A DNA stretch of 39,713 bases, taken from contig JAGQPR010000013.1 in the NCBI GenBank assembly GCA_020426625.1, positions 1 through 39,713 on the forward strand, read 5' to 3'. The position numbers were made by a program, and so were the translations under genes. Shown piece by piece: positions 20,243-38,732 of the stretch (positions are counted from its first letter, which is position 1; every line of letters begins with the position of its first letter). The notes below the pieces were generated by a model. The model did not search any database, was not told where the DNA came from, and saw only the letters and a list, made by a program, of their open reading frames with translations. This DNA comes from Planctomycetales bacterium (GTDB taxonomy: Bacteria > Planctomycetota > Planctomycetia > Pirellulales > Pirellulaceae).

Positions 20243-21382
20243 CTAGCGTTGGTAGATCGGTAGATAGTGGTATTCCACAGACAGGCTGAGTATCGCCAGG
20301 CAAGTCGCGTAAACTTTGCCCGCTCCCAATTCCTCACCGCCGGGCGCCATCCAAGAGCCGTCGTTTTGTTGTTGCGGCAAAAGTAGTTCGCGGGCGACGC
20401 GTTTGGCATCTTCGGCAATATTGCCCCCGCGCTGATGCATGCCTTGCGCGTAGTAATACATGCCGTAAAAGAAATAGCGATCCTTCCATTTGGGCGGATT
20501 TCGCAGTAGCCATTCTGTCGAACCCGAGACCAAGGGCGATTCGTACTGCCCACAGACTTGCATGGCTAACAGTCCGGCTGCCGTCATGGCAAAAGTGGCG
20601 TTTTGGTTGTCCGGCAAGTAGCTGAAACCAGCTAAGGATTGGGTCGGAATACCGCGTGAATCTAACCTGGCTACGTAGGATCGTTCGAGATATTTGATCG
20701 CCGCATCGATGGCACCCGAAGGAACGTTTAACTCATCGTTCTTTGCCGAACGAAGGGCCAGCAATTGCCAGACACTTACGGACAAATCGGAGTCTGTCGA
20801 GTTGGGGGTGTAACGCCAGCCACCCTGAAATCGCGAGGCTTTCGTTTGCTGCTGAGCGCTCAGGATTAAATCGATTGCCTTTTGGCAGGCGGCCAAGATG
20901 CGATCGTCCTGCTGTTGGTCGGCACCCATGCCCAGCATTTCCGTCAGCATCAATGTGGTGATTCCATGTCCGTACATGCGAGAACCATCTCGGTTGCCAA
21001 AGTATCCGTTGGGTTCCTGGCGATCGGCTTGAAGGACGAAATCCAAAGCACGTCTCACCGCCTCTCCTTGCCGACCGGGCGACGTAGGCAAATTCCCCAC
21101 GGATGCCATGGCCATGATCGCCAGCGACGTCATGGTCGTGTCGTATTGTTGGTCGACAACAGCGCCATCAATGCGCTGTTTAGAGAGTAGGAACTCGCAG
21201 GCGCGTTGGATTGCCAGGTTTTCGTCGTTGGCAATCGCTGCGGCTTGATTCTGCGCCAATGCAGTAGAAAGAGTCGAAGGCGGTCCGCCTATCCACAAGT
21301 ACAACACCCACGCTCCGCAAGCTATTGGCCTGGACCATTCTTCTAAGTGCGCCATGGATTCTTTAGGGTAGGAGTATTTCAT
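20243..21382 (-). CDS. Secreted squalene-cyclase/prenyltransferase-repeat (alpha/alpha toroid) protein
   Basis: A 379-residue protein, last gene of the VWA operon; its ATG overlaps the stop of the giant gene as ATGA. An N-terminal hydrophobic stretch ending near ALAQ (about 43-46) looks like a signal peptide. Repeated helices with QW-like turns can be seen: KQRIDGAV, EPNGYFGNRDGS, RFQGGWRYTP and QQQNDGSWMAPGG. This is the fold of squalene-hopene cyclases, but the DxDD acid motif is not present (the nearest is DSDLS), and the protein is about half the length of a cyclase. A cyclase role is therefore unlikely. Such toroid proteins are frequent in planctomycetes with no known function. Its translational coupling to the VWA cluster suggests an extracytoplasmic part in the same system. 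Confidence 0.82.
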   Translation of the reverse strand: MKYSYPKESMAHLEEWSRPIACGAWVLYLWIGGPPSTLSTALAQNQAAAIANDENLAIQRACEFLLSKQRIDGAVVDQQYDTTMTSLAIMAMASVGNLPTSPGRQGEAVRRALDFVLQADRQEPNGYFGNRDGSRMYGHGITTLMLTEMLGMGADQQQDDRILAACQKAIDLILSAQQQTKASRFQGGWRYTPNSTDSDLSVSVWQLLALRSAKNDELNVPSGAIDAAIKYLERSYVARLDSRGIPTQSLAGFSYLPDNQNATFAMTAAGLLAMQVCGQYESPLVSGSTEWLLRNPPKWKDRYFFYGMYYYAQGMHQRGGNIAEDAKRVARELLLPQQQNDGSWMAPGGEELGAGKVYATCLAILSLSVEYHYLPIYQR

Positions 21383-24300
21383 GGATTTTCAGTTGTACTG
21401 GGCGACGCCAGTTGGTGGCGGCCAAGCTCGCGAAAATAGGCTTCGATTTGGGCGCGATAACTTGCGGGCATGGCATCACGACGGCCTTGGAACAGCTCAG
21501 TTGGAGCTTGTTCTCGCAGCTCACCCCATTCACGGCCCAGGCGATTGACGTCCACGATCTGCACGTGAACGGCTGGTTGAGGCTTGACCTCAGTCGCTGG
21601 CGAATCGGTAGCCATGCCGAGATCGCTGGTCGCCGGATCTGAGGCTGGTTGCCGGTTCTGACTCATGCGATGCGCCAGCTGCTCAGCTGCTTCAGCGATG
21701 GGAGGTGCTGGCGAACCCTCTCCCTGAGATGATGTTGTACCATTGGCATCGTTGTCCTTGGGACCCTGTTTAGGTTCTTTCGGTTGATTGAGTTGTTGGT
21801 CCAATGCATCCAGCAGCTGAGCCAGCTCGCGCGAGTCGAGCGGCAATTCATTAGGTGACTCGGTTGCGTTTGCCGCTGGTGCAATTTGCGTTTGAGGCGA
21901 GTTTCCTTCAAGCAATTGCCTAACTTGTCGAGTAACATCTTCAATCGATGAAAGGACATCTGTCAGCCGCTCCATGGCGTCTCGACTTGCCTCAACACTC
22001 ACCCGCATGGTATTCGATGCGGCTGCTTGTTCGCCAGCCAGAACCAACGTTTCCGTCGCCTTGGGAATGCTATCCTCAATGACTCGCTGCGTTTCCAGGT
22101 GAGCACGTTCCAGACGCTGAGCATTGTTCGATTGCCTCAATCGCTCCTCGTGCCGCGCGGCTCGAGCCAGTAAGTCCGACGCGCGTGCCACGTGGCTTGC
22201 CACTTCTTCTTGGTCGAGTTGGGCACTTGCCACCGCAGAAGCTGTCGCCTGCATGGAGATCTGCGGCGGTTGCTGCAAGCCATTTTCAATCCATTTAGTA
22301 ACCTCTACTGCTTGCTCTGCCAATTGGACTCCCAGCCGACCGAATGGATTGGCGGTTTCCAAGGCGTCCACCTGCCATTGATTCAGGTTCTGTGTGTGCT
22401 CGCGCGCATCGGTTCGCCGTTGTTGCAATTGCCGCAAAAATGCCTGCAAAGCGGTTGAAGTCGCCAATTGAGTCTGTCGCTCCTGCGTAAAATCTGTTTC
22501 GGTTTTCAGTCGATCAAGCTGGCTTGGTGACAACCTTTGCTGAGACTCCGCCTGTTGAATGGATTCGGCGAGGATACTCTCGATGCGTCGCGCCTCTCGC
22601 ACTAATGCCTGTTGAACGCGGCGAGCTCGATCCTTCAGTTCACGCCGACTGAGCTGTATCTCCGGCTGACTACGTTGCGGAGCGATTTCCGTCGACGCCG
22701 CAAACTTACCCAGTTGGTCAGTAAGCATTCTCCGAGTGTTAGACAGTTGATTCCACAAAGTGCTAGCCAATTGCCATCGTCCGCTGAACGTGTCCGGCAT
22801 AACTTCGACCGCATCTGTAAAATCATGAGCCAGGGAAGCTATCTCTTGCAAAATGGTAGTTGCTCGCTCTGTTTGCCCAACCGCTTTTGCAGTCCACTCC
22901 ATCTCCGTTAGCAGTGGTCCTAATAAGGCGTCGTAGCGCTCTCTTGCCAATCGAATGTCTTGCTGCAGCAACTTTTTGTAATATTTCGTTTCAGGAGCGG
23001 AATCCTCCAAAGCGGGTGCTAACGATTGTTGTTCATCCTGCGCTACCAGCAATTCATTGAGCGCGTCGCGTACGGCAACTTTGGCGATGTCTGATAACTC
23101 TTGCTGCATCTCGGCATCGTTTGGTAGTTTTTTTTCCAGCATTTCAAGAAGTTGTTCGGGATCGCTCGCAGCCAGCTCTGCAAGTTGCTCGGCCAGGGTG
23201 TAATCGGCTGACAGTCCCTCCTCCGTCGAATCGGCAGGGGCTTCGTCGGACAGCTGGGGTTCCTGGTCGCGATTCGGTTCACCAGCGAGTGAGGAGCTAT
23301 TTGCCGTCAATGGCGATCGGTCCTGATTGGCAATCGTTTTTCCTCGCAGGATCGAAGCCACACTAGCTAAGTCCTCGGCTGCAGACATTTGCTCTTGAGC
23401 AGCGTATCTCAATCGTCGAACTTGATCGCCGGGGGGCGATTGCGCATCCCACGGAGTAAGTGATCCTTCGATTTGTGCAGAAGCGTCGGCTACTACTGCC
23501 AATGCTCGGTCTGCGTTCCTCGCCTTCGCTATTTGGGCTGGCTCGAGCAAGTCCTGCAGTTCTGCGTGATCCACCAAAGCTTCGCGCAGATCTTCGATAG
23601 GCTTGGTGAGTTGCGAAAGCTGCTCCTCGAGCTGTTGTTCACGAGACTCCAGATCTGGTATTTCCTGGCGCGTAACCGCTTCTCCCAGCTGTTGGGACTG
23701 AATTCCCACGTTTCTGGTTGCATGCGCAGCCCGCTCAGCCAGAGTTTCGATCTCAGGTGCAAACCCGGCTAGCACTGCGCGCGCCTCCTGTGCCAGCGTC
23801 TCAACCTCCTGTTCGGCAGATGTCTGCAACTCGTTAAGCTTTCTCAAAGTCGCAGCCAGCGAGTTGATCGGTGGCTGGCTGCGTTCGCTGCGTTCCAATT
23901 GAACCAGTAGCTCGCGTCTCTCACTGCCCAATAATGCTTCCAGCAGCGCTGGTACTGAAGCTAGCTGACGACCGGGCATGCTTAAGTGCTGAACTGCGGT
24001 CTCGATTTGGGCCGTGTACATGTCCCACAATCCCAGAATGCGTTCCACTTGCTGGCGATTCTGCTGAGGAAGATTTTGAACCTCTATTATTTCCGCCAAG
24101 AGACGTCGCCCGCGCTGCAAGCGCGCGACGCCATCCAGTACCTGAATCGCCGCCGCAATTTGCCCCAACTCGCGCTGCATTCGGCCAGCCAAATAAGCTG
24201 TCCGCTGCTCGAAACAGAACTCCACCGCCCGCTTAGCGTAGCCCAAATCGCTCGCAAAATGATCCTGTCCGCTGCTCTGCGACCTGCCAATCGACCTCCG

Positions 24301-26793
24301 CTCGGCCAGTTCCTCCAGGACGAATGCCACGCGTGGATTGTCTGCGTGCAGTAGATTGTCTGCCGTGCCTGCGAGCAATCCAATAGACTCACTCGCAGCT
24401 CCTGCCAAGCGGAGCAGCTCGCGCTGGCTGTAAGCGCTAGCAGCTGGCAGCCCGGGGTCCAACTGAGTAACGGAATCTAACACGGACAAGGCAATGTGCA
24501 ACGAGGCCGCATTGTGTACAAGGAGATCTGCGCTGAGCTTGCCTTGTTCCCTCTCTAGTTGCGCCATTTGTGTAGCGATGACGCTCGCCGCATAGCGCAG
24601 CCGCTCAGCGGACTCCTCGCGCAGGTGGACCATTTCGTCCAACATGCACTGCTGAACCTCCTTCAACTGCATGGCGATGACCTGCTGCCTGCGGGCTAAT
24701 GTTATGAGAGTGGAGCTGTCGGCACCCATGTCGCTTTGCAATTGCGACTGCTGCGCGAAAACTATCGCAAGTTTTGCAGCCAGGAATTGCATCACATCGT
24801 AGCTGACGAGTGTTCTAAAATGGGCGGAGATGTTGCCAGCATCGGCCGCCACACTGTCCGAGCCAACTTCACCGGCTGCGTCAATTAGTTGACGCATCTT
24901 GCTGGTTAGAGCGTTGCCAAGCTCTCCGAGTTGCAGTTTGTGCAATTGGTCGGACGACAGTGAAGCCGTTTGTTCAACCAGCCCAACCAATTGTTTGATG
25001 TCCTTCTCCGAGCTGAAAACAATCTCACGTCGCAGCCCTGGAGCATCGTTACCAAGTTCCGCATAATTCGTCAACTTGGTTGCCAGTTCCTCGAGGCGCT
25101 GGGCAATTTGCAGCCTCAACTGGACAGCCTGGTCTACGCCGAAATCCACACTGCCGTCGGCGATTACAATCTCCAATACGTCCGAATTGGTAACTTGCTC
25201 CTTCAAGTCGGTTGCGGACACACGCAGCTCCATGCGATCCCCTGCCCGCAAGTTGAACGGGAGCAGATCCATGGTCCAGTCGTACGTAACGGAGGCAACA
25301 ATCGCTTCCTCTTCTGATGCAATCGCTTCATTCGTTGTGCTCCGGCTATCAACTGCAATATCAACCCAATCGCGTTTGTTGATGCGTACTTGCCCACCGA
25401 TGCGAGTAGATGTTTCATCTCGCACCAGCAGGCTGAGCGACACTTGGTCACTTGCATTGGCAATCAGCGTTGTGTGTGTCGGAGCAAGCCAACGAACGGA
25501 GGGTGGCACGTCAGTCAGACCGCGGATCGCATACTTGCGGCTAAACTCGTTGGTCAGCCCATGGGGGTTGAGTAAGTGGACCCGGAATTCGCGATCTCTG
25601 TCGACAGGCAGCTCAAGCGCCCACAAACCTGTTGCTGTTTCAAATTCCAGTTCGGATATCGCGTTTTCTTCTTCCTTCAGGTCCCTAGCAGGATCGGGAT
25701 CGTCTGTGGTGTTTGACCAATACAATGCCGCTCGGACAACAGGTTCCTCGACCTGGATCTGGATTTGCACGCGACTACCCATCAGCGCCCGAATTTCAAC
25801 TGCGGAAAGCGCCTCGCGGTATGCGGACAAATTGGTGTACGCCGGAGGAATTATCGTCGTGATGAATTCGGCAATCTTGGGGCGTGGTTGAGTGTCCAGG
25901 CGATACCAGGGAGTTTGCGCCTGCTGCGCCACCACTCGGTATTCGATCCACGGCTGCTGCGTGCTAAGTAATCCTTGAACATAAACGACACCGCGTTCGG
26001 CGCCGATGTTGAGATCTTGAGCCGATGGTTGATGAAGCATCCTCGACGACTGGTTGGATGAATCAGTTCGCGTCTCCAATTGCGCTTGGCCGTTGAAGTC
26101 TCCGGATATTTTGGCAACGAGGGATACCAAGTCACCTGATGCGACCGTCATCGATTGGGCAACGGGTCGGACAATCTCAATCGCCACGCTGCTGACGCGT
26201 CCCCAATCAAACATGGGTAGCAGAATCCGCGCTGCGCGGTGTGTAAAATGCAGACCAGGCGACACCGATAGTAGGAGAATCAAGCAAGCAAAAGCGCATG
26301 CAAAGTAGAGCGAACGGCGAACGATTCGCCAGGGCAGCATTTGTTCGATATCGACCAACTCCATGGCTTCTTCAACTTGCATTTGCAACTTGGCGATAAA
26401 CGCATAGGAGCCTGCAGTGGTCGGGCCGTTTTCGTCCGACATTTCAACAGCAGGCAACAGCAAACCGCGTAGATTGCGATTCGCTCGCTCGAATTTGCGA
26501 GCTTCGTTGGACAGAGTTCCGCGGGCAAACACTTTTTGCCCCAAGAGACTCAACATCAGCAGCAGCGGCACGTAGAAAACTGCGCATGCCAACCATGGTG
26601 CAGCCGGATGCGCCCACCAGCCATCCAAGAGTAACGCCAAACACAAAGAAATCGTGGCGGTCAGGCAACAACGCCCTAGACCACGAGTCGCCATCAAACG
26701 AATGCGACGGGAACGAAAGGCCGCCAGCTTGCTCCGGGTGACCTCCGGCAACGCTGCGTTCATATGCGACATTTCGTCAAAGGCAATACTCAT
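21379..26793 (-). CDS. Giant membrane-anchored coiled-coil protein (DUF4175-like), 1804 residues
   Basis: ATG 26793 overlaps the stop of the upstream VWA gene as ATGA; an in-frame extension to 26874 lies inside that gene. Three membrane segments are near the N-terminus (about 42-58, 66-85 and 160-178), followed by a region of beta-rich, Ig-like character (about 200-550). A very long helical, Gln/Glu/Ala-rich part with heptad-like patterning (about 580-1650) comes next, then a low-complexity linker and a C-terminal helix ending YRAQIEAYFREL. This layout resembles DUF4175-type proteins of Planctomycetes and Bacteroidota. The bulk should sit outside the cytoplasm, anchored beside the VWA proteins encoded upstream. 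No catalytic motif was found. The single frame is unbroken over 5.4 kb, so the size appears genuine. Confidence 0.85.
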   Translation of the reverse strand: MSIAFDEMSHMNAALPEVTRSKLAAFRSRRIRLMATRGLGRCCLTATISLCLALLLDGWWAHPAAPWLACAVFYVPLLLMLSLLGQKVFARGTLSNEARKFERANRNLRGLLLPAVEMSDENGPTTAGSYAFIAKLQMQVEEAMELVDIEQMLPWRIVRRSLYFACAFACLILLLSVSPGLHFTHRAARILLPMFDWGRVSSVAIEIVRPVAQSMTVASGDLVSLVAKISGDFNGQAQLETRTDSSNQSSRMLHQPSAQDLNIGAERGVVYVQGLLSTQQPWIEYRVVAQQAQTPWYRLDTQPRPKIAEFITTIIPPAYTNLSAYREALSAVEIRALMGSRVQIQIQVEEPVVRAALYWSNTTDDPDPARDLKEEENAISELEFETATGLWALELPVDRDREFRVHLLNPHGLTNEFSRKYAIRGLTDVPPSVRWLAPTHTTLIANASDQVSLSLLVRDETSTRIGGQVRINKRDWVDIAVDSRSTTNEAIASEEEAIVASVTYDWTMDLLPFNLRAGDRMELRVSATDLKEQVTNSDVLEIVIADGSVDFGVDQAVQLRLQIAQRLEELATKLTNYAELGNDAPGLRREIVFSSEKDIKQLVGLVEQTASLSSDQLHKLQLGELGNALTSKMRQLIDAAGEVGSDSVAADAGNISAHFRTLVSYDVMQFLAAKLAIVFAQQSQLQSDMGADSSTLITLARRQQVIAMQLKEVQQCMLDEMVHLREESAERLRYAASVIATQMAQLEREQGKLSADLLVHNAASLHIALSVLDSVTQLDPGLPAASAYSQRELLRLAGAASESIGLLAGTADNLLHADNPRVAFVLEELAERRSIGRSQSSGQDHFASDLGYAKRAVEFCFEQRTAYLAGRMQRELGQIAAAIQVLDGVARLQRGRRLLAEIIEVQNLPQQNRQQVERILGLWDMYTAQIETAVQHLSMPGRQLASVPALLEALLGSERRELLVQLERSERSQPPINSLAATLRKLNELQTSAEQEVETLAQEARAVLAGFAPEIETLAERAAHATRNVGIQSQQLGEAVTRQEIPDLESREQQLEEQLSQLTKPIEDLREALVDHAELQDLLEPAQIAKARNADRALAVVADASAQIEGSLTPWDAQSPPGDQVRRLRYAAQEQMSAAEDLASVASILRGKTIANQDRSPLTANSSSLAGEPNRDQEPQLSDEAPADSTEEGLSADYTLAEQLAELAASDPEQLLEMLEKKLPNDAEMQQELSDIAKVAVRDALNELLVAQDEQQSLAPALEDSAPETKYYKKLLQQDIRLARERYDALLGPLLTEMEWTAKAVGQTERATTILQEIASLAHDFTDAVEVMPDTFSGRWQLASTLWNQLSNTRRMLTDQLGKFAASTEIAPQRSQPEIQLSRRELKDRARRVQQALVREARRIESILAESIQQAESQQRLSPSQLDRLKTETDFTQERQTQLATSTALQAFLRQLQQRRTDAREHTQNLNQWQVDALETANPFGRLGVQLAEQAVEVTKWIENGLQQPPQISMQATASAVASAQLDQEEVASHVARASDLLARAARHEERLRQSNNAQRLERAHLETQRVIEDSIPKATETLVLAGEQAAASNTMRVSVEASRDAMERLTDVLSSIEDVTRQVRQLLEGNSPQTQIAPAANATESPNELPLDSRELAQLLDALDQQLNQPKEPKQGPKDNDANGTTSSQGEGSPAPPIAEAAEQLAHRMSQNRQPASDPATSDLGMATDSPATEVKPQPAVHVQIVDVNRLGREWGELREQAPTELFQGRRDAMPASYRAQIEAYFRELGRHQLASPSTTENP

Positions 26794-29183
26794 ACTAGCC
26801 CCGCTCGTTTTCGCAAGATCCACTCCATCGTAAGCAGAGTTAGGGCTGGCAAAAACCACATGTAGGATTGCCAAATTGCTACTGATCGATTTTCCAAGCG
26901 AATACCGGAAACCGGTCGTAGCTGCTGCGCAAGTTGTGACAAGTCGTTTTCGGAGTAGTACTTTCCACCAGTCGCCTGTGCCAAATCGGTCAGCAATTTT
27001 CTATTGCAAGTCAAATCTAGCAGCTCGCGCCGATGTTCGCTGGTCACAACCAGCTCTGTTTCAATGTTCAGCGCTTCCTGAGGGTAATCTTCCGCAAGCA
27101 ATCTCACTCGGTAGTGTCCCTCGGGAAGATTTGACGCAATCGCCGAATAGGTACCTGGCAAATCCGTGTGTTCGATCAATGCAATCTTGGTTTCCAGTTG
27201 TGCATCGCTTGCGAGAACAACCATTACCGATTTTCCGCTGGCGGGATCACCGGACATGTCCTTCAGCTGTGAAAGCAACTCCACGGGATGTCCTGGCAGG
27301 ACTTGGGCAGCTCCCGTGTCCAAAGATACAAACTCGTTCTTGACCGCCATGGGACGCCGCTGTACCCAACGCGCCAGCTGGCTCCAAAGTCGTTGATGTA
27401 CCGTATCAGCAGCCTTGAACCGCCACCGCCAGGTTTCATCCGTAGCGCAATACAGCACGCGACCCGCACCGTAGCGTCGGGTGACAAGTAGCGGAGTGGT
27501 CTCAACGTCACTTATTGCGTCGATCAACGTTTCCGCACCCGGCAGCGCTTTCACTCGAGCAACAAAATTCAGAGGTTCCAGCTGACTCCACTGGCGCAAG
27601 TTGCTCGCGTCGTCCTTGATCACGTTCATGTCATTGCTGTTAAGGCTGGTGTCGATTCGCAGCGCCTGAAGACGCATTCCCACTTCGGTAAGCGCTACTC
27701 GCTTGGGCAATGATTCGACAGCGGTTACCACAGTATCTGATTTGCCTAACCATTGGACTGGCAACAGATCGCCAATCAAGTCGCTTGCAGAAGCTCGCAA
27801 CTGACGACGGGCGCCATCCAACAGCACCAGCCCGCCACCCTTCTCGACAAACTCATGCAACCAGTTTACATCCTGAGATTCCAGGTTTTTGCAGTCGATA
27901 TCACCCAGGATCATCAATTCAAACGCATCAATTTGTTCATTTGACAAACCCAATGGCAACGGTAACCTCGCCGTCAGTTGGCTTGATGATTGATGTAAAA
28001 TGTGAGATTCTATTTCCCAGGCTGGATCGCGGGAGAACATGTTTCTAAGATAGCGGCTCTCCCATCGACTGCGTCCGTCCACAAACAGTACGCGCGAACG
28101 TTGGGCGATGACCGCCAAATTGGATACCAGGCGATTGTTCGTCACGCATGGCTCACGCGCCGCGGAAGTCAGCTGTGCATGCAACGCGACCGGGTAGCGA
28201 GAATACTCTCCACCTTGTTCCGAGTTGGTAAGAACGTGTTTGATTTCCGCAATCGCGATTTCAAAATCGATTTTTCTCCGGTCTGACTCCGTAGACAACA
28301 GTTGTTGCTGCCAAAGGACGTTGGCATTTCCTACGTCGTCTTGGCTACCGATCGTTGCCGTATATCTCGTGCCGGCTGGGATTCTCTCCTGAATCAACAG
28401 GGCTCCCCGTAGTGTATCGGCCTGGAACACGCTCTGTGGATGTTGCAAGTCGACCACGGCCAGATCCACAGGGGAGCTCTCGGCACCGAAACCAACCGTA
28501 AAGAGTTGGATGTTTCGGTTGGCTAAATCCTCGGCAGCTGTCAGCGCGTCACGGCCTGCGTTTGATTGACCGTCGCTTAGTAGGACAACGTACTCAGACG
28601 CAATGGAGTGCTCTTCTGACGAGTTGCTGTTGGCCATTGCGGAAGATATCGCATCCCCTAAGGGAGATCGTTTGAACCACTGCTCTGGCATCCAATTGGC
28701 GGGCAAGCCTATAGATCTTGACAACGGCAGCGCACTGGGGTCCAGCGGAGTGGACTGCCACAGCGCTTGTTGTGGATTGCTGCTGGTAACGACACGTATC
28801 GACATTTTGTTCTTTAATTCTTCGAGCCAGCTTTGATCGGAAATCATTCCATCGACGGCTCGGGCATAGCGTGATCCTTCGCTAGGGTAATGCTCCGAGC
28901 TTTCATTCTCCTGAAGCTCGTCCCTCAGCGACATACTTTGCGAATCGTCCAGAATAATCGTGAGATTGGCCGGGGTGCCCCGCCATCGCTGGGTTTCCCA
29001 AATCGGTTGGCTAAGGGTCATTGCGACTAGAAAGATGGCCATGCTGCGCAGCAAGATGATGCAGTATCCCAACTGGATTTTTTGCTGGCCAAACTGGCGA
29101 CGATAAAGTACCGCCGCAAGTAGTGATAGTCCGGTAGCGACGAGCAACCAAGTTGGCCAGTTGCCAAGAAATTGCACGGACAT
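26790..29183 (-). CDS. Membrane VWA-domain protein with glutamine-amidotransferase-like region
   Basis: A 797-residue protein starting at ATG 29183, one base overlapping the previous stop (TAATG). Two membrane segments (about 11-27 and 41-58) precede a VWA domain with an intact MIDAS motif DDSQSM (Asp 79, Ser 81, Ser 83) and later LLSDGQSNAG (200-209). A middle section (about 362-470; VLFVDGRSRWESRYL, and FELMILGDID...GGGLVLLDGAR) resembles the class I glutamine amidotransferase fold but without a G-x-C-x-G nucleophile. A beta-rich region and a C-terminal membrane helix (about 770-790) close the protein. By analogy with BatA/BatB proteins it would be a metal-dependent adhesion module in the membrane, working with the other operon products and an unseen MoxR ATPase. 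Confidence 0.85.
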   Translation of the reverse strand: MSVQFLGNWPTWLLVATGLSLLAAVLYRRQFGQQKIQLGYCIILLRSMAIFLVAMTLSQPIWETQRWRGTPANLTIILDDSQSMSLRDELQENESSEHYPSEGSRYARAVDGMISDQSWLEELKNKMSIRVVTSSNPQQALWQSTPLDPSALPLSRSIGLPANWMPEQWFKRSPLGDAISSAMANSNSSEEHSIASEYVVLLSDGQSNAGRDALTAAEDLANRNIQLFTVGFGAESSPVDLAVVDLQHPQSVFQADTLRGALLIQERIPAGTRYTATIGSQDDVGNANVLWQQQLLSTESDRRKIDFEIAIAEIKHVLTNSEQGGEYSRYPVALHAQLTSAAREPCVTNNRLVSNLAVIAQRSRVLFVDGRSRWESRYLRNMFSRDPAWEIESHILHQSSSQLTARLPLPLGLSNEQIDAFELMILGDIDCKNLESQDVNWLHEFVEKGGGLVLLDGARRQLRASASDLIGDLLPVQWLGKSDTVVTAVESLPKRVALTEVGMRLQALRIDTSLNSNDMNVIKDDASNLRQWSQLEPLNFVARVKALPGAETLIDAISDVETTPLLVTRRYGAGRVLYCATDETWRWRFKAADTVHQRLWSQLARWVQRRPMAVKNEFVSLDTGAAQVLPGHPVELLSQLKDMSGDPASGKSVMVVLASDAQLETKIALIEHTDLPGTYSAIASNLPEGHYRVRLLAEDYPQEALNIETELVVTSEHRRELLDLTCNRKLLTDLAQATGGKYYSENDLSQLAQQLRPVSGIRLENRSVAIWQSYMWFLPALTLLTMEWILRKRAGLV

Positions 29184-31444
29184 TAGCCACTGTCTCCTCG
29201 GTCGATTCGCCCAGCCAGTAGCATTTCAGCAAATAGCAGGCCAAGTAGAGCTACCACGCAAGCTGGCCAAATCTCCTTGCCCTCCCGCTGCAATAGTTGC
29301 CAGGTCAGTAATTCATCAACCGAGCGGACAAACGTGGCGTTCAACTGCTCGGCCACCGATTCAACCTGAGAATCATTCAGCCGCGACAATTCCGATTCAG
29401 CGGGATCATTGGAGACAGCCAGAAGCGGTGGAATCGATGCATGCGACGAATCTAACTGAGTCACCTTGTAAACTCCACCCGGCAGTGTCAACGGCACGAT
29501 GCTTGACGACTGACCGCTGTCGAGCAGGAGCGTATGCGCTTTGTCCCCCGCCCCGATTTGATTGAAGACCAAATTCAAGGGTAGTGACTGGTCCACAGAA
29601 ACTGGTCGCGAGATGCGAATGGTTTCGCCACAAATAACATTGTAAGCATCGCTGTGCCAACGTACTGCACTGAGTACGATACTCTGTACCAACGGCAGGA
29701 AAACAGGCGTAAGTGGCCAATCGGACCACTCCTCCGACAATCCGAGTCCACATTGCACTACATTGCCTTTGCCAGCGCGATGCATGGCCGCTAGCGTTTC
29801 CCCACTGGATAGTCGTAACAGTTCTCGGACTGGTGAACCTGTAGAGGACTCGCTTGCCAAGCTGGAAACCAAGTCGGTCCACCGCTTGAGATGCACTGCA
29901 CCCAAATCCCTTTCCAACGAGGCGATTTCCTGTTGGAAAGGTGATCGCAACTCACTTACGGAGGGCATCAGAATTGTGGGAGCCGCTGCGGTTGCCAAAT
30001 CTCGGTTACTCTCGGAAAGCTGGCTGGTATCGATGTCTTGCCGACGGACGTTGCCGAATCGCAATGGCAACAAGTTATTATTGTTAACCCAGTTGTCGTT
30101 GTACCACGTTGCATCTAGGTCCGGTCCAGAGAAGACAACCAGCCCTCCTCCATCAGTCACGAATGCTTCGATTGCGCTCGCAGCTGCCGACGAAAGCGCT
30201 GGGGCGGCAACCAAGACCAATGCATCCTGTTGCTGCAGCGAACGAATATCCAAATGTTTCGCAACAATTGCATTTACGCGAAAGTGATTGCGAAATGCAT
30301 CCCGGCCAACGTAGGGAGCCAGAGCTAATTGCAGATACTGAGCTTCAGCAAGTGATTGAGCTTCAGGATTTTGAGCAGGGTTCGTCTGCGTGATTGTCCC
30401 TGCTGACGATATCAGGACGCGAAGCGGCTCAAAAACTTGTACTATTTCACTCGCTTGATTGTCAGCCGACAACGCATCGTTATGCATCAAGGAACAAACA
30501 ATATGGTGCCAGGCGGGGTCAGCAAACGTGCACGCGAAATCGAGTTGTTGAGCGCTGCCAGCAGCCAAGTCGACGGTACGACTCTCCACGGCATCGCCAT
30601 CGACAGAAAAGGTCACATAAACCGTTGTTGCACTTGTGCTGTGGTTTCGCACAATCGGCTGTGCGTGATAGATGTCGTGGATGAAAACGGCCGATTGCGG
30701 TCGGGGCGGCATGTGTATAGATACATTCCGTCGCGTGTTAACCGTGTTGTCCTGTGGGTCAGCTCGCAGCAGAAGCAGTTGAAGGGAACTCGATCGCTCC
30801 TGCAGTAAACTGCGTAGCGAATCGTAGGCAGCTGCCAACGGCGACCAATCTGCAGCTTGAAAATCGCTGATAACGACGACCTGCCGCATTCCCGCTTCGG
30901 AAGGATCCTGCGTGCGGATGGCGGATTCCACAGCAGCTAACACAGAACGTTGGCTCCCAAAGGCTTGAATGCCATTCAATGATTCAGCGAAGCTTTGCTG
31001 GTTTGCTACCGAACTCGCGTTGTCTGCTGTTTGAGTCGTATGCAATGCGAGTGTCGCGGAGGGCTGCGCCGTAACGATATTGCTCGCAGTTTTCTTTGCC
31101 TGTTCAAGCACTGTCGTGTCTGAGTCATTCGTGCATAACATCGATAGGCTATTGTCGATTACGAATTGAATCGAATCTTGTCCGCTGTATCCTGGCACTC
31201 GAAAACGGGTCAAGACAGGACGAGCCAACGCAATGGCAAATACAATGGGAATCAGGATGCGCAGCAGCAAAAGCAACCAAGAATCCCACTGCACGCGTCG
31301 CGATGAGAGTGCTGGCTGTAGCGCAAGCAAGTGCATGGCGCCCCACTGGACCGTCTTAGGGCGAGCACGAGACAACAGGTGAATAACCAGCGGTATTAGA
31401 GCTGCCGATGCCCCACCCAGCAAAATTGTGTTTAAGAAGTTCAT
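29183..31444 (-). CDS. BatA-like membrane VWA-domain protein
   Basis: A 753-residue protein. The N-terminal 80 residues match the BatA/aerotolerance-regulator N-terminal domain: LIPLVIHLLSRARPKTVQWGAM, then a second membrane segment LLLLRILIPIVFAIALARP. A VWA domain follows, with MIDAS DNSLSM (Asp 97, Ser 99, Ser 101) and VVVISDFQAADW (189-200). A region at about 406-444 (ALVLVAAPAL...FVTDGGGLVVFSGP) resembles a glutamine-amidotransferase fold without the catalytic cysteine. A final membrane helix lies near 728-747. The overall layout repeats that of the next gene, so the two are probably old duplicates. It lies 150 bases downstream of the DUF58 gene. Confidence 0.88.
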   Translation of the reverse strand: MNFLNTILLGGASAALIPLVIHLLSRARPKTVQWGAMHLLALQPALSSRRVQWDSWLLLLLRILIPIVFAIALARPVLTRFRVPGYSGQDSIQFVIDNSLSMLCTNDSDTTVLEQAKKTASNIVTAQPSATLALHTTQTADNASSVANQQSFAESLNGIQAFGSQRSVLAAVESAIRTQDPSEAGMRQVVVISDFQAADWSPLAAAYDSLRSLLQERSSSLQLLLLRADPQDNTVNTRRNVSIHMPPRPQSAVFIHDIYHAQPIVRNHSTSATTVYVTFSVDGDAVESRTVDLAAGSAQQLDFACTFADPAWHHIVCSLMHNDALSADNQASEIVQVFEPLRVLISSAGTITQTNPAQNPEAQSLAEAQYLQLALAPYVGRDAFRNHFRVNAIVAKHLDIRSLQQQDALVLVAAPALSSAAASAIEAFVTDGGGLVVFSGPDLDATWYNDNWVNNNNLLPLRFGNVRRQDIDTSQLSESNRDLATAAAPTILMPSVSELRSPFQQEIASLERDLGAVHLKRWTDLVSSLASESSTGSPVRELLRLSSGETLAAMHRAGKGNVVQCGLGLSEEWSDWPLTPVFLPLVQSIVLSAVRWHSDAYNVICGETIRISRPVSVDQSLPLNLVFNQIGAGDKAHTLLLDSGQSSSIVPLTLPGGVYKVTQLDSSHASIPPLLAVSNDPAESELSRLNDSQVESVAEQLNATFVRSVDELLTWQLLQREGKEIWPACVVALLGLLFAEMLLAGRIDRGDSG

Positions 31445-31594
31445 GTTCCGTTGCGTGGTGTACTATTCTTTTCCTCGGTACAGAATGAGGCTTGCGCAAT
31501 AATGGCCTGCTTGACCAGAGCATCACAACTGGGCGCGACCTGTGTACCACCAAATTCCACATCCCGCCATTTTCAATGCACAAGAAACCGTATC

Positions 31595-32521
31595 CTAACG
31601 CGCCGTCCCCCGCATTCGTCGCTTGCCAGGATTCCCTCGACGCACTAGATAATTCGCGAGTATTTCTGCTTGGGGTTGATCGGAAATGCATTCTAGGCAA
31701 TCAATACCCTCTGCTGCAAACGTTTCCGCCAGACGGCTGCGAAACTCTGCCAACCTTTCCAAATAGGCTCGCCGCACTGCGATTGGATCCAATACGTGGG
31801 CCTCGTTTGCCGACTCTAACGATTGAAATTGCGTTAATCTCCGGAACGGAAAATCCAATTCGTCGGGGTCCCAAACCTGAAAGACGACTACCTCGCATTG
31901 ACGACGACGCAGATGTTGCAAAGAGCTTAGCAACTGCGGCGAATCCTCGAATAGGTCCGATACCAGGAACACTAAACCGCGTTTAGGCATCCTTGGTGTT
32001 AACTGATGCACTACGTTGTGAAGCTGCGAATTCCCTGCAGGCTGACTCTTGACCAACGCCGCGCACAGTGTCGACAAATGCGAGGGATGGCTGCGCGCTG
32101 CCATGAACTCCCGAAGCTGGGCATCGTATAGAGCCAAGCCCACCGAATCCTGTTGCGAGATCAGCAACGTTGCCAGACAGGCCGCCAGACGCACGGCATA
32201 CTGATGCTTGGTGATCTGGCTCCGAGTTCCGGAGTACTTCATCGACCCGCTTTGATCGACCAGTATTATTGCCCGTAGATTGGTTTCATCTTCGTACTGG
32301 CGAACATACAACCGATCCGTCTTGCCGTAGAGATTCCAATCCAGCGAGCGAATTTCGTCTCCGCGAACGTAGGGCCGATGCTCGCGAAATTCTGCACTAG
32401 TTCCCTTGTGCGGCGATCGATGCATGCCAGTGTGCACGCTTTCCACAACTTTGCGGGCAAGGATCTGCAATCGCAACAAAGATTCACGATCTGCGGGAGA
32501 TAGGAGCGGCAAGCTGGACAT
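31595..32521 (-). CDS. DUF58 (VWA-like) protein, first gene of the VWA operon
   Basis: A 308-residue soluble protein with the DUF58 signature EFREHRPYVRGDEIRSLDWN (45-64) and YVRQYEDE. A VWA-like segment carries the MIDAS motif VDQSGSM (Asp 89, Ser 91, Ser 93) and later LVFLVSDLFED. DUF58 proteins are encoded beside MoxR AAA+ ATPases and VWA membrane proteins, and are thought to serve as adaptors for metal-dependent assembly or chaperone complexes. Here the gene is the first of its operon: no MoxR gene lies upstream, and the next gene upstream is on the other strand. No strong ribosome binding site precedes ATG 32521. Confidence 0.92.
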   Translation of the reverse strand: MSSLPLLSPADRESLLRLQILARKVVESVHTGMHRSPHKGTSAEFREHRPYVRGDEIRSLDWNLYGKTDRLYVRQYEDETNLRAIILVDQSGSMKYSGTRSQITKHQYAVRLAACLATLLISQQDSVGLALYDAQLREFMAARSHPSHLSTLCAALVKSQPAGNSQLHNVVHQLTPRMPKRGLVFLVSDLFEDSPQLLSSLQHLRRRQCEVVVFQVWDPDELDFPFRRLTQFQSLESANEAHVLDPIAVRRAYLERLAEFRSRLAETFAAEGIDCLECISDQPQAEILANYLVRRGNPGKRRMRGTAR

Positions 32522-35008: not shown

Positions 35009-37234
35009 TCACGGCGAGTCTTCAGTCTGTAGCCAAACCGGTTGTGTGAAAGCGCCGTTCGTGGCGACATCCCATATTTCCATTCTCACCCACCGCTGGC
35101 CAGCCAGTTCGACCTGGAATTCAATGGCCTGTTCGCCAAAAGCAGATGTAGCCGACAGATCAAATCGCTGGCGGAATACATTGATGCCATCGCCGTAAAC
35201 CACCTCTGCATAGGCCAGTGGGAACGTCCACCTTAGATCCAACGAAATGAGCGAATTCCCATTGCTGGGCACAGAACACAACTGACCCGACTGACAACCG
35301 TTGACTCTGAAGTCTGGTATTAAGACTTCACCAGTTGTTACAAAGAACTGACCTGCGCGAAGCACATCCAATACCGCTTGCCAACCATGGTCGAAGGCGG
35401 GTATCTCTTCCGTGCGAAGGTAGTTGACATTCATGTGGCCATACAACTCATGCTCTGGCTCGATCTTAAAGACGTCCACTTCTCCGAGAACGTATTTTGG
35501 GAATCCCCAGTTGGACATGTCGTTCAAAAGATTCAGCACCCGCATGCCCAGTCGTGGCAATGACAAATCGGCTGGCATGGCCTTCCAGGCCGCACCCAGG
35601 AACCGATCGGATTGATAGAATAATTCATCGCGGTAGGCGTCAGGAAATCCTGTCGATCCCTTGATTCGAGGGTGAGCTGTCCAAGCCAACCCGTTCTCAA
35701 GTTGCAGCAATCGCAGCATATCAGCGGCATTTCCAACATGGTAGATGTTCCCCAACGTTGAATGCTGCGTAACAAATGGCATTCCCGCAGGCCGGTTGAG
35801 TACCCAGTAGACAGGTTTAGGGAATAGGCTGATCCAATGTCCACCCAGGTGCACGTTTGGTTCTTCGCCTGGCAGTAAGAGAAACTCGGCATCGCTCAGT
35901 CGTCGAGCTTCCGCGTGCAGCAGTTCCAAAGACTCCACTCTCTGTTCAGTGTCCAATTGCGGTGTGGCACCGAAATGAAATTCGGCCAAGTGTACGATAT
36001 CGATCCCCATGTCGCGCAGCATTCGCGTGAAACCAGGTGTTTGGAGTCGTGGCGGGATAATGTATTCGCGCCCGCCGGGTGTGGTGGCCGTAATCGATGC
36101 TTCGTCCTCGGTTGGTTGTTGCTGCGCAGCGAGTAACTCTCGCGTATGCTCAACGTGATAGTGGCTCGAAAAAACCGTGTGTCCTGGCAGTCGTTCAAAA
36201 CGATCATGCCTAGTCAATTGAGCCACCGTTTCCAGTGTCTCATCGATCCGTCGATTGGACAAACACCAGAATACCCCCATCTCCTGGGCGCTGCCGACCG
36301 GGGCATTGAACCAAGGAACAAAGCGATTATCACCTGCGGGATCATGGCGAATTCCCAGGCCGGTCGGTAATGCCTGCGAAGCGTAATGGGGACCGATCCA
36401 GACGTTGCTGAGATTATTCGAGAAATCGAGTGGATAGAAGTAACGATGTGGTGGAGGGAAAACCGCGATGCAGCCCTGCTCAAAGGCAGCGCAAACCGTT
36501 CGTCCCCGTACGGCGATGTTGCGAGCCGCAGCGACTGCAGAGACAGGTTCAGCGTGCACCTGACTGGTGATAGCATCTATCCAAGCATATTCCTTGGGTA
36601 GCGAGCCGCGACAAACAAGGCCGGTATCGTAGAGAAAGGCGGTTCGCTCACGTGCCGTTTCAAGTACAGCTTCCTGCAGGACGATGGGGCTGCCGTGATA
36701 AAAAGTCCAACGGATTACTCCGTGAAACGGGCCTGCCGATACGGGGCCAAGTGTCAATGTCGCTCGCTGGGCATTACTTGTTGCAACAGCTTGTTCACGA
36801 CCCAGCGTAGCCAGGTACACTTCGTTGGGCTTGGTCTGCATGCGATCAAAGAAGATGGTCCAGCCACTTCGTTTCTCTAGATCGCGGTCTCCAACTCGCA
36901 CGGACAAAACAGGGTCAAGATCAGTGGCCACAGTTTGTACGGAGTCGCCACTTTGCGATATAGAAACTGACTTAACGATCGCATCCTTGGCGTCCAAGCT
37001 AAAAAGTATCGTAGCGGTTGCGGTATCGTGTATGGGCCAAACCACAGAGACGACCGAATCTCGCTGCGTAATTGCGATTCCGCACGACGGGTCATACTGG
37101 CTGGCGTCCAGCGTTGCTTGAGCGGCACTAGCCGCCAAAGGCATGGCGAAGATACCAACAAACAGCGGGCACCATGCGCGCGTAAACATTGCAAGCAGCA
37201 TCATCGTGGTTCTTGTTCGAGTCGCAGATCGCAT
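35009..37234 (-). CDS. Secreted PHP-like (CehA/McbA-type) metal-dependent hydrolase
   Basis: ATG 37234 follows an AGGGGACC ribosome binding site and opens a signal peptide (hydrophobic core about 22-36, cleavage near ASA at 37); an upstream in-frame start at 37294 would bury it. The mature 700 residues have a beta-rich N-terminal half (about 40-340) and a C-terminal half with PHP-domain-like metal ligands: HYHVEH (358-363), HLAEFH (415-420), GEEPNVHLGGHW (456-467) and AWTAHPR (517-523). This order resembles CehA/McbA-type hydrolases. It probably cleaves a phosphoester, ester or similar bond outside the cytoplasm; the substrate is unknown. It is 25 bases beyond the photolyase-related gene on the same strand and may share its transcript. 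Confidence 0.7.
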   Translation of the reverse strand: MRSATRTRTTMMLLAMFTRAWCPLFVGIFAMPLAASAAQATLDASQYDPSCGIAITQRDSVVSVVWPIHDTATATILFSLDAKDAIVKSVSISQSGDSVQTVATDLDPVLSVRVGDRDLEKRSGWTIFFDRMQTKPNEVYLATLGREQAVATSNAQRATLTLGPVSAGPFHGVIRWTFYHGSPIVLQEAVLETARERTAFLYDTGLVCRGSLPKEYAWIDAITSQVHAEPVSAVAAARNIAVRGRTVCAAFEQGCIAVFPPPHRYFYPLDFSNNLSNVWIGPHYASQALPTGLGIRHDPAGDNRFVPWFNAPVGSAQEMGVFWCLSNRRIDETLETVAQLTRHDRFERLPGHTVFSSHYHVEHTRELLAAQQQPTEDEASITATTPGGREYIIPPRLQTPGFTRMLRDMGIDIVHLAEFHFGATPQLDTEQRVESLELLHAEARRLSDAEFLLLPGEEPNVHLGGHWISLFPKPVYWVLNRPAGMPFVTQHSTLGNIYHVGNAADMLRLLQLENGLAWTAHPRIKGSTGFPDAYRDELFYQSDRFLGAAWKAMPADLSLPRLGMRVLNLLNDMSNWGFPKYVLGEVDVFKIEPEHELYGHMNVNYLRTEEIPAFDHGWQAVLDVLRAGQFFVTTGEVLIPDFRVNGCQSGQLCSVPSNGNSLISLDLRWTFPLAYAEVVYGDGINVFRQRFDLSATSAFGEQAIEFQVELAGQRWVRMEIWDVATNGAFTQPVWLQTEDSP

Positions 37235-37259
37235 GTGAGGTCCCCTGAATTTGAATAGC

Positions 37260-38732
37260 TTAGACGTGTAGTTTTTCGAGAAAGCGATCTGCATGGCGAT
37301 GATGTTCGGCCAGTTTCAAACCCATGCGATCGAGTTGCCCGACCATGACGCGCATCCGCGGGTTGGAGCTGAAGAAATCGCGATGCCGGTCAATGAAGCG
37401 CCAGTAGAGTCCATCCCAGACCTCCGTCCATGGTCCCTTCGAATAATCGCTCATCTTGCGAATATAGCTCGAACCACTGATATAGGGTTTGGTGGTTATC
37501 AGTCCTCCATCCGCATGTTGGCTCATGCCATATACGTTGGGAACCATGACCCAATCGTAAGCGTCAATGAACATTTCCATGAACCAACGATAGACTTCAT
37601 CGGGCGCGATATCGCATAGTAACATAAAGTTTCCTAGCACCATCAAGCGTTCGATATGATGGCAGTAGGCGTGGTTCCCTACGCGTTGTACGCTGCGATC
37701 AAAGGGCTCGATCCCAGTTGTGCCAAGATAAAACGAAGCCGGGAGTTTGCACGAAAGCTCCCATGCATTTCGAGTACGCTGGCGTCGACCGGCTTGCAAG
37801 TAGACCAACCGGATAAACTCTCGCCATCCGATCACTTGCCTCAGGAAGCCCTCCAGTGAATTCAAGGGAATGATATCAGCCTTGTCCAAGACAGCCTCGA
37901 CGATCTGCCGCGGGGTCAGTAGGCCGATGTTGAGCATGGGGGTTAGCACGCCGTGAAACAGGAAGGTTTCGTCGCGAGAAATGGCATCCTCATAGTCGCC
38001 AAAGTCAATCAAGCGAGTCTCGATGAATTCGTCTAGCCAGGCAGCGGAATCCGCATAAGTCACCGGAAAGGCAAACTGCTGAATCTGCCCTAACGCGTCT
38101 GGAAATTGGCATGCAACATACCGCTTGGCCTCGCGCACACTTTCGCCCTCTGTCGGTAATGAGATCGTCGGCAGCACGATATTCTTGGGCAGCTTCTTGC
38201 GGTTCTCAGTATCGAAAGTCCACTTACCGCCAGCTGGCTTGTCGTTGTCGTCCAACAACAAACCCATTCGTTTTCGTTGACGCATATAAAAATCGGTAAA
38301 GTGGAAGTGTTTTCGCTGCTGCGACCAGTCTTGCATGAAGCTCGCGGGAGTGAGAAAGGCTGGATCTTCCAGCCATTCAACCGCGATTCCAGCAGCTTTA
38401 CAGCCCTGACTCACTCGCGCGTGTAGCCAATCATCGGAAGGATCAACTGCGACGACTCTCTTGATTTTCTTGTTGCGAATTATGGCTCCGATATCAGCAG
38501 AATGCTGAATTGCCCTGGCTTCGACCCGATGCACCTGCTTCCCGAGTTTTTCGCACCTTGAGGCAAACTCTGTCATCGAAGCGCGATGCAATACAAGTTT
38601 TTGACGATGGAAGTTATATTGAGTGAAAAATAATGGATCTTCGACTAATAGGCAGACTCGGGCTGCTGCTACAGCTGGATGGTGTTCCCAAAGCTGATGC
38701 GGATACACGAGAGCGGCGGCGAACTCGGACAT
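37260..38732 (-). CDS. Photolyase/cryptochrome-related flavoprotein (FeS-BCP family) lacking the iron-sulfur loop
   Basis: A 490-residue protein of the family of bacterial (6-4) photolyases and cryptochromes typified by PhrB (COG3046). Family landmarks are VYPHQLWEHHPA at the N-terminus, VIGWREFIRLVY (300-311), the His pair in YCHHIERLMVLGNF (356-369), YGMSQHADGG (401-410) and TKPYISGSSYIRKMSDY (414-430). In PhrB four cysteines bind a 4Fe-4S cluster; three of them follow MSDY. Here that stretch reads SKGPWTEVWDGLYW, with no Cys and a shortened loop, and no Cys is at the fourth position before the His pair. FAD-binding parts appear intact, so light-driven repair or signalling is possible. It starts 5 bases after the flavoprotein gene. 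Confidence 0.9.
   Translation of the reverse strand: MSEFAAALVYPHQLWEHHPAVAAARVCLLVEDPLFFTQYNFHRQKLVLHRASMTEFASRCEKLGKQVHRVEARAIQHSADIGAIIRNKKIKRVVAVDPSDDWLHARVSQGCKAAGIAVEWLEDPAFLTPASFMQDWSQQRKHFHFTDFYMRQRKRMGLLLDDNDKPAGGKWTFDTENRKKLPKNIVLPTISLPTEGESVREAKRYVACQFPDALGQIQQFAFPVTYADSAAWLDEFIETRLIDFGDYEDAISRDETFLFHGVLTPMLNIGLLTPRQIVEAVLDKADIIPLNSLEGFLRQVIGWREFIRLVYLQAGRRQRTRNAWELSCKLPASFYLGTTGIEPFDRSVQRVGNHAYCHHIERLMVLGNFMLLCDIAPDEVYRWFMEMFIDAYDWVMVPNVYGMSQHADGGLITTKPYISGSSYIRKMSDYSKGPWTEVWDGLYWRFIDRHRDFFSSNPRMRVMVGQLDRMGLKLAEHHRHADRFLEKLHV

Follow-up and report, generated by a model that had tools for sequence, protein, structure and literature searches.

The photolyase gene in the window (the whole 39,713-nucleotide stretch of Planctomycetales DNA that was analysed) very probably encodes a cluster-free prokaryotic 6-4 photolyase of ‘subgroup M’, in which FADH(-) would drive the repair of 6-4 photoproducts and the roof of the C-terminal domain would be held by packing, as judged from sequence comparison and a structural model. 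The original prediction of a natural cluster-free photolyase therefore stands, but novelty is not supported. Because subgroup M was published in 2022, the cluster-free class is not new, and the planctomycete gene is an ordinary member of a branch that has already been described. In Chen et al. 2022 (NAR, PMC9178010), seven subgroups are distinguished among 110 prokaryotic 6-4 photolyases, and the four cysteines are reported for all but subgroup M, whose 20 members belong to multiple lineages and include PromaPL of Prochlorococcus. FeS-BCPs are treated there as a subtype of the whole prokaryotic 6-4 group. The Phr2 of most marine Synechococcus is also described as cluster-free (PMC9426592). The features discussed below are collected in Table 1.

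Table 1. Positions in the window of the photolyase gene, selected sites in it and its neighbours.
Feature	Position	Strand	Basis or remark
Photolyase gene, 490 aa	37260..38732	(-)	ATG start; PhrB/DPRP family; Pfam, PDB matches, AlphaFold2
N-terminal antenna (DPRP) domain, residues 8-222	38067..38711	(-)	Pfam PF04244, 187 bits
His358-His359 pair; His359 corresponds to catalytic His366 of PhrB	37656..37661	(-)	Alignment; His359 in 106/106 Cys-less sequences
Pro343, replacing upstream cluster Cys (RsCryB chain C360; AfPhrB C350)	37704..37706	(-)	Alignment
Met396, position near FAD N5 (Glu in AfPhrB/RsCryB)	37545..37547	(-)	Met in 106/106 Cys-less sequences; site as given in PMC9178010
M-S-D-Y ... 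L-Y-W segment, residues 427-444, without Cys, ten residues shorter than in FeS members	37401..37454	(-)	Alignment, model
Renalase-like NAD/FAD-dependent amine oxidoreductase, cut by contig end	38738..39712	(-)	Upstream, same strand as photolyase
761-aa protein, weak CehA/McbA metallohydrolase match, likely signal peptide	35009-37294	(-)	Downstream of photolyase

We assign the protein with high confidence to the FAD photolyases of the prokaryotic 6-4 group. It carries both the DPRP N-terminal domain and the full-length PhrB-like fold by which this group is recognized (COG3046 / Pfam DPRP), and its best sequence matches in the PDB, where a search with the protein returned cluster-containing members only, are the Caulobacter 6-4 photolyase, RsCryB, AfPhrB, and the enzymes of Synechococcus elongatus and Vibrio. 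Identity is 29-35% to prokaryotic 6-4 enzymes versus 11-18% to CPD enzymes. Structure modelling, which the original prediction had proposed as a check, gave an AlphaFold2 model with a pLDDT of 96.6 and a pTM of 0.94 from a 77-sequence alignment, in which the shortened loop is also confidently modelled. The top structural matches of this model are RsCryB and PhrB (Z ~50, 483 residues, 1.9 A), and across the FeS-BCPs (Agrobacterium PhrB, Rhodobacter CryB, and the Caulobacter, Vibrio and SePhrB enzymes) the same fold is matched over 474-487 residues at 1.9-2.2 A (Z 43-51). Class II CPD photolyases have the general photolyase fold in common with it (Z ~30), but the match covers ~350 residues at 11-12% identity, and the class II-like photolyase of the host is a separate gene. 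Decay of the gene is ruled out by its intact reading frame, by relatives that are 68-72% identical, and by the retention of every catalytic residue tested.

FeS-BCPs share with the planctomycete protein the catalytic His, the Mg2+ Asp pair and the lesion-binding Tyr, but they have four cysteines and a [4Fe-4S] cluster where the planctomycete protein has none, and their roof loop is ten residues longer. Cysteines 360, 448, 451 and 464 of RsCryB (chain numbering) align to P, S, a gap and E, so that none of the four conserved [4Fe-4S]-binding cysteines of FeS-BCPs is present, the first being P343. MSDY and LYW are separated by 11 residues (SKGPWTEVWDG), versus 21 in FeS members, and residues 434-449 form a helix in the AlphaFold2 model. 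The absence of cluster cysteines from a photolyase of the iron-sulfur family, the shortened and cysteine-free segment before LYW, and the retained His358/His359 pair are thus all as originally read from the sequence.

The protein might instead hold a cluster with other ligands, and it does contain seven further cysteines. However, only C373 (95%) and C357 (76%) are conserved within the Cys-less branch, which leaves no alternative conserved set of four; two columns do not suffice for a conserved four-Cys site, and Pro is invariant at the position of the upstream ligand. The four conserved cysteines elsewhere that would have spoken against a cluster-free protein were thus looked for in the branch and not found, and we consider a cluster with other ligands extremely improbable.

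Relatives of the protein are numerous. A scan of genome contigs yielded at least 580, the best 80 of which are 47-72% identical to it, and those listed come from Bacteroidota, Planctomycetota, Acidobacteriota, Verrucomicrobiota, Cyanobacteriota, Nitrospirota and other phyla. More distant members were added from whole-genome searches covering the host genome surroundings, the host phylum and cyanobacteria. Among the 191 full-length homologues, 43 have four cluster cysteines, 148 have none and 0 have one to three; because the sampling was seeded with the planctomycete protein, the ratio of 148 to 43 is no gauge of how frequent each kind is. The four cysteines are missing from every one of the 148 full-length branch members, which come from many phyla, and their absence is therefore neither chance nor a local sequencing error. 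Among the matches listed, the cluster-free branch is frequent in Bacteroidota and occurs also in Planctomycetota, Cyanobacteriota, Acidobacteriota and Verrucomicrobiota.

In a tree of 54 representatives, built without an outgroup and with the trait columns excluded, the cysteine state needs to change only once, on a split with support of 100/99 that is present in 200/200 bootstrap trees. All Cys-less members thus lie on a single side of that split. The planctomycete protein, being of PhrB type, without the four cysteines and set apart from the FeS-BCPs by this one change (100/99), has the features of subgroup M. Like subgroup M, whose members span many phyla, and like PromaPL and the picocyanobacterial Phr2, it combines a PhrB-type N-terminal domain with the lack of cluster cysteines; like subgroup M, it has a Met near FAD N5 and an electron-transfer chain short of the full W-W-Y-Y type. 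According to PMC9178010, the full W-W-Y-Y chain is missing from subgroup M, and the Met near N5 is frequent in subgroup M and neighbouring subgroups. Cys-less loci (L189-L196) of 1.6-1.7 Mb cyanobacterial genomes, which presumably belong to Prochlorococcus, are presumed to be PromaPL orthologues and fall within the Cys-less branch. The planctomycete protein is 43% identical to one of these sequences (L189), and no functional difference was seen.

The branch is also marked by fixed changes around the old cluster site, which the original prediction had proposed to look for. After thinning to 75% identity, which left 106 Cys-less and 33 FeS sequences, the upstream ligand position holds Pro in 106/106 Cys-less members versus Cys in 33/33 FeS members, and the roof loop, by our counting span, is 14 residues long in 98 of the 106 versus 24 in all 33. 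Trp439 is found in 98/106 Cys-less sequences, at a site that is Phe in most FeS members; Glu361, which follows the His pair, has Gln as its counterpart in most FeS members; and Met370 of the Cys-less set is Ala in FeS members. These co-conserved changes (Cys to Pro, a loop shorter by ten, Phe to Trp, Gln to Glu, and Ala to Met) do not appear in the account of the branch in the available text of PMC9178010. As a separate observation on the loop, in about half of the cluster-free photolyases the Trp of the shortened loop is followed by a lone Cys (W-C-[DE]-x-W-D), a position at which the planctomycete protein has Thr.

The roles of PhrB residues in 6-4 repair, including those of H366, L370 and M410, have been described (PMC4619345, PMC12082625), and the substitutions H366A and H366N abolish repair in PhrB (PMC4619345). 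The counterparts H359, L363 and M403 are each present in 106/106 members of the Cys-less branch, and Y417, D174 and D249 (PhrB Y424, D179 and D254) are invariant in the Cys-less set. The original suggestion of a separate functional class thus stands with respect to the branch and is not supported with respect to function, in that all of the PhrB 6-4 repair residues tested are kept.

An alternative would be that enzymes of the cluster-free branch act on CPDs, or on both lesions, instead of 6-4 photoproducts. On the evidence of how mutants, and E. coli provided with the gene, survived UV-B/UV-C, the Cys-less Phr2 of marine Synechococcus has been proposed to be a CPD photolyase (PMC9426592). However, class I CPD enzymes, which served as an outgroup, have Asn at the position of H359, where His359, like Leu363 and Met403, is invariant in the branch. 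The planctomycete protein accordingly has neither of the marks of class I/II CPD enzymes, which are Asn at the catalytic-His site and closest similarity to CPD enzymes; PromaPL is classed as a 6-4 photolyase in PMC9178010; and the host genome already holds a class II-like CPD photolyase (L198). CPD repair by this branch is thus quite unlikely. It is more doubtful still that the protein has abandoned repair and become a blue-light sensor, or cryptochrome. Regulatory effects are described for RsCryB, which belongs to this family too (PMC9178010), and the electron-transfer residues Y335, F384 and F388 of the planctomycete protein are unlike those of RsCryB. Every repair residue tested is nonetheless conserved, and the two tyrosines of the chain are replaced by Phe/His in SePhrB too, an active FeS enzyme (PMC9178010), which makes a purely sensory role very unlikely.

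We therefore favour 6-4 repair and propose the following mechanism. FAD would be bound in the C-terminal domain and, when reduced and excited by blue light, would transfer an electron to the 6-4 photoproduct once this lesion has been flipped into the pocket. The lesion would be protonated by His359, the counterpart of PhrB His366, and Asp174 and Asp249 would support the binding of Mg2+. From its residues, the enzyme is expected to have retained 6-4 repair activity, and it would act alongside the class II-type CPD photolyase of the host. The host genome contains one PhrB-type gene, that for the 490-aa protein, and a search of it for an FeS paralogue of PhrB type found none. Since the other photolyase is class II-like, 6-4 lesions would be left to the planctomycete enzyme.

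Presumably it is the short loop and helix 434-449 that, by packing directly, hold the C-terminal roof subdomain together and so would replace the cluster. Cys mutants of PhrB were insoluble or unexpressed (PMC4619345), which indicates that related proteins cannot always do without the cluster and counts against this explanation. There is no agreed function for the cluster in PhrB-type photolyases, and a large natural cluster-free branch with fixed changes provides a means to ask whether the cluster is only structural.

The idea that the cluster was ‘lost’ in this branch is not established. When trees are rooted on photolyases of classes I and II, all FeS members fall into one clade (100/99) within a Cys-less basal grade. 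This arrangement would fit an ancestral cluster-free state and a single gain of the [4Fe-4S] site in the FeS-BCP branch, which would contradict the common view of the cluster as an ancient feature that was lost later. However, a single Cys-less clade costs only 2.1 log units and is not rejected (AU p 0.20), and the branches leading to the outgroup are very long, at 2.6 to 6 changes per column. Short photolyase-like (SPL) proteins reportedly contain a cluster. We regard the cluster-free ancestry suggested by these sequences as a tentative and rather unlikely alternative.

The nature of the antenna cofactor was also considered. At the antenna site, E31 (Glu) and K45 (Lys) are retained, but the D-loop and ‘ceiling’ residues deviate from the DMRL-binding pattern (sites as given in PMC9178010). 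Apolar residues near the ‘ceiling’ position, together with Lys45, would suit 8-HDF. An 8-HDF antenna is nevertheless disfavoured, as no CofG or CofH scored over the cut-off in the host genome (an assembly ~94% complete), where the two CofH-like matches belong to the futalosine pathway (MqnE and MqnC). Lumazine synthase (TIGR00114) was not found in this assembly either; its absence bears on the supply of DMRL for a DMRL antenna, but at ~94% completeness it may reflect a gap and is not decisive.

The renalase-like gene ends 5 bases ahead of the photolyase start and is a possible operon partner. A renalase-like neighbour also lies directly upstream in the two nearest relatives, both planctomycete (L002 and L048), and a related gene turned up close to only two further loci. 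The listed ATG of the 761-aa reading frame overlaps the end of the photolyase gene by 35 bases, which makes an internal start more likely; as far as can be seen, this CehA/McbA-like gene is unrelated to the photolyase. Elsewhere in the window, a 1831-aa reading frame with no Pfam match (21379-26874, minus strand) adjoins BatA/VWA and DUF58 genes (26790-32521).
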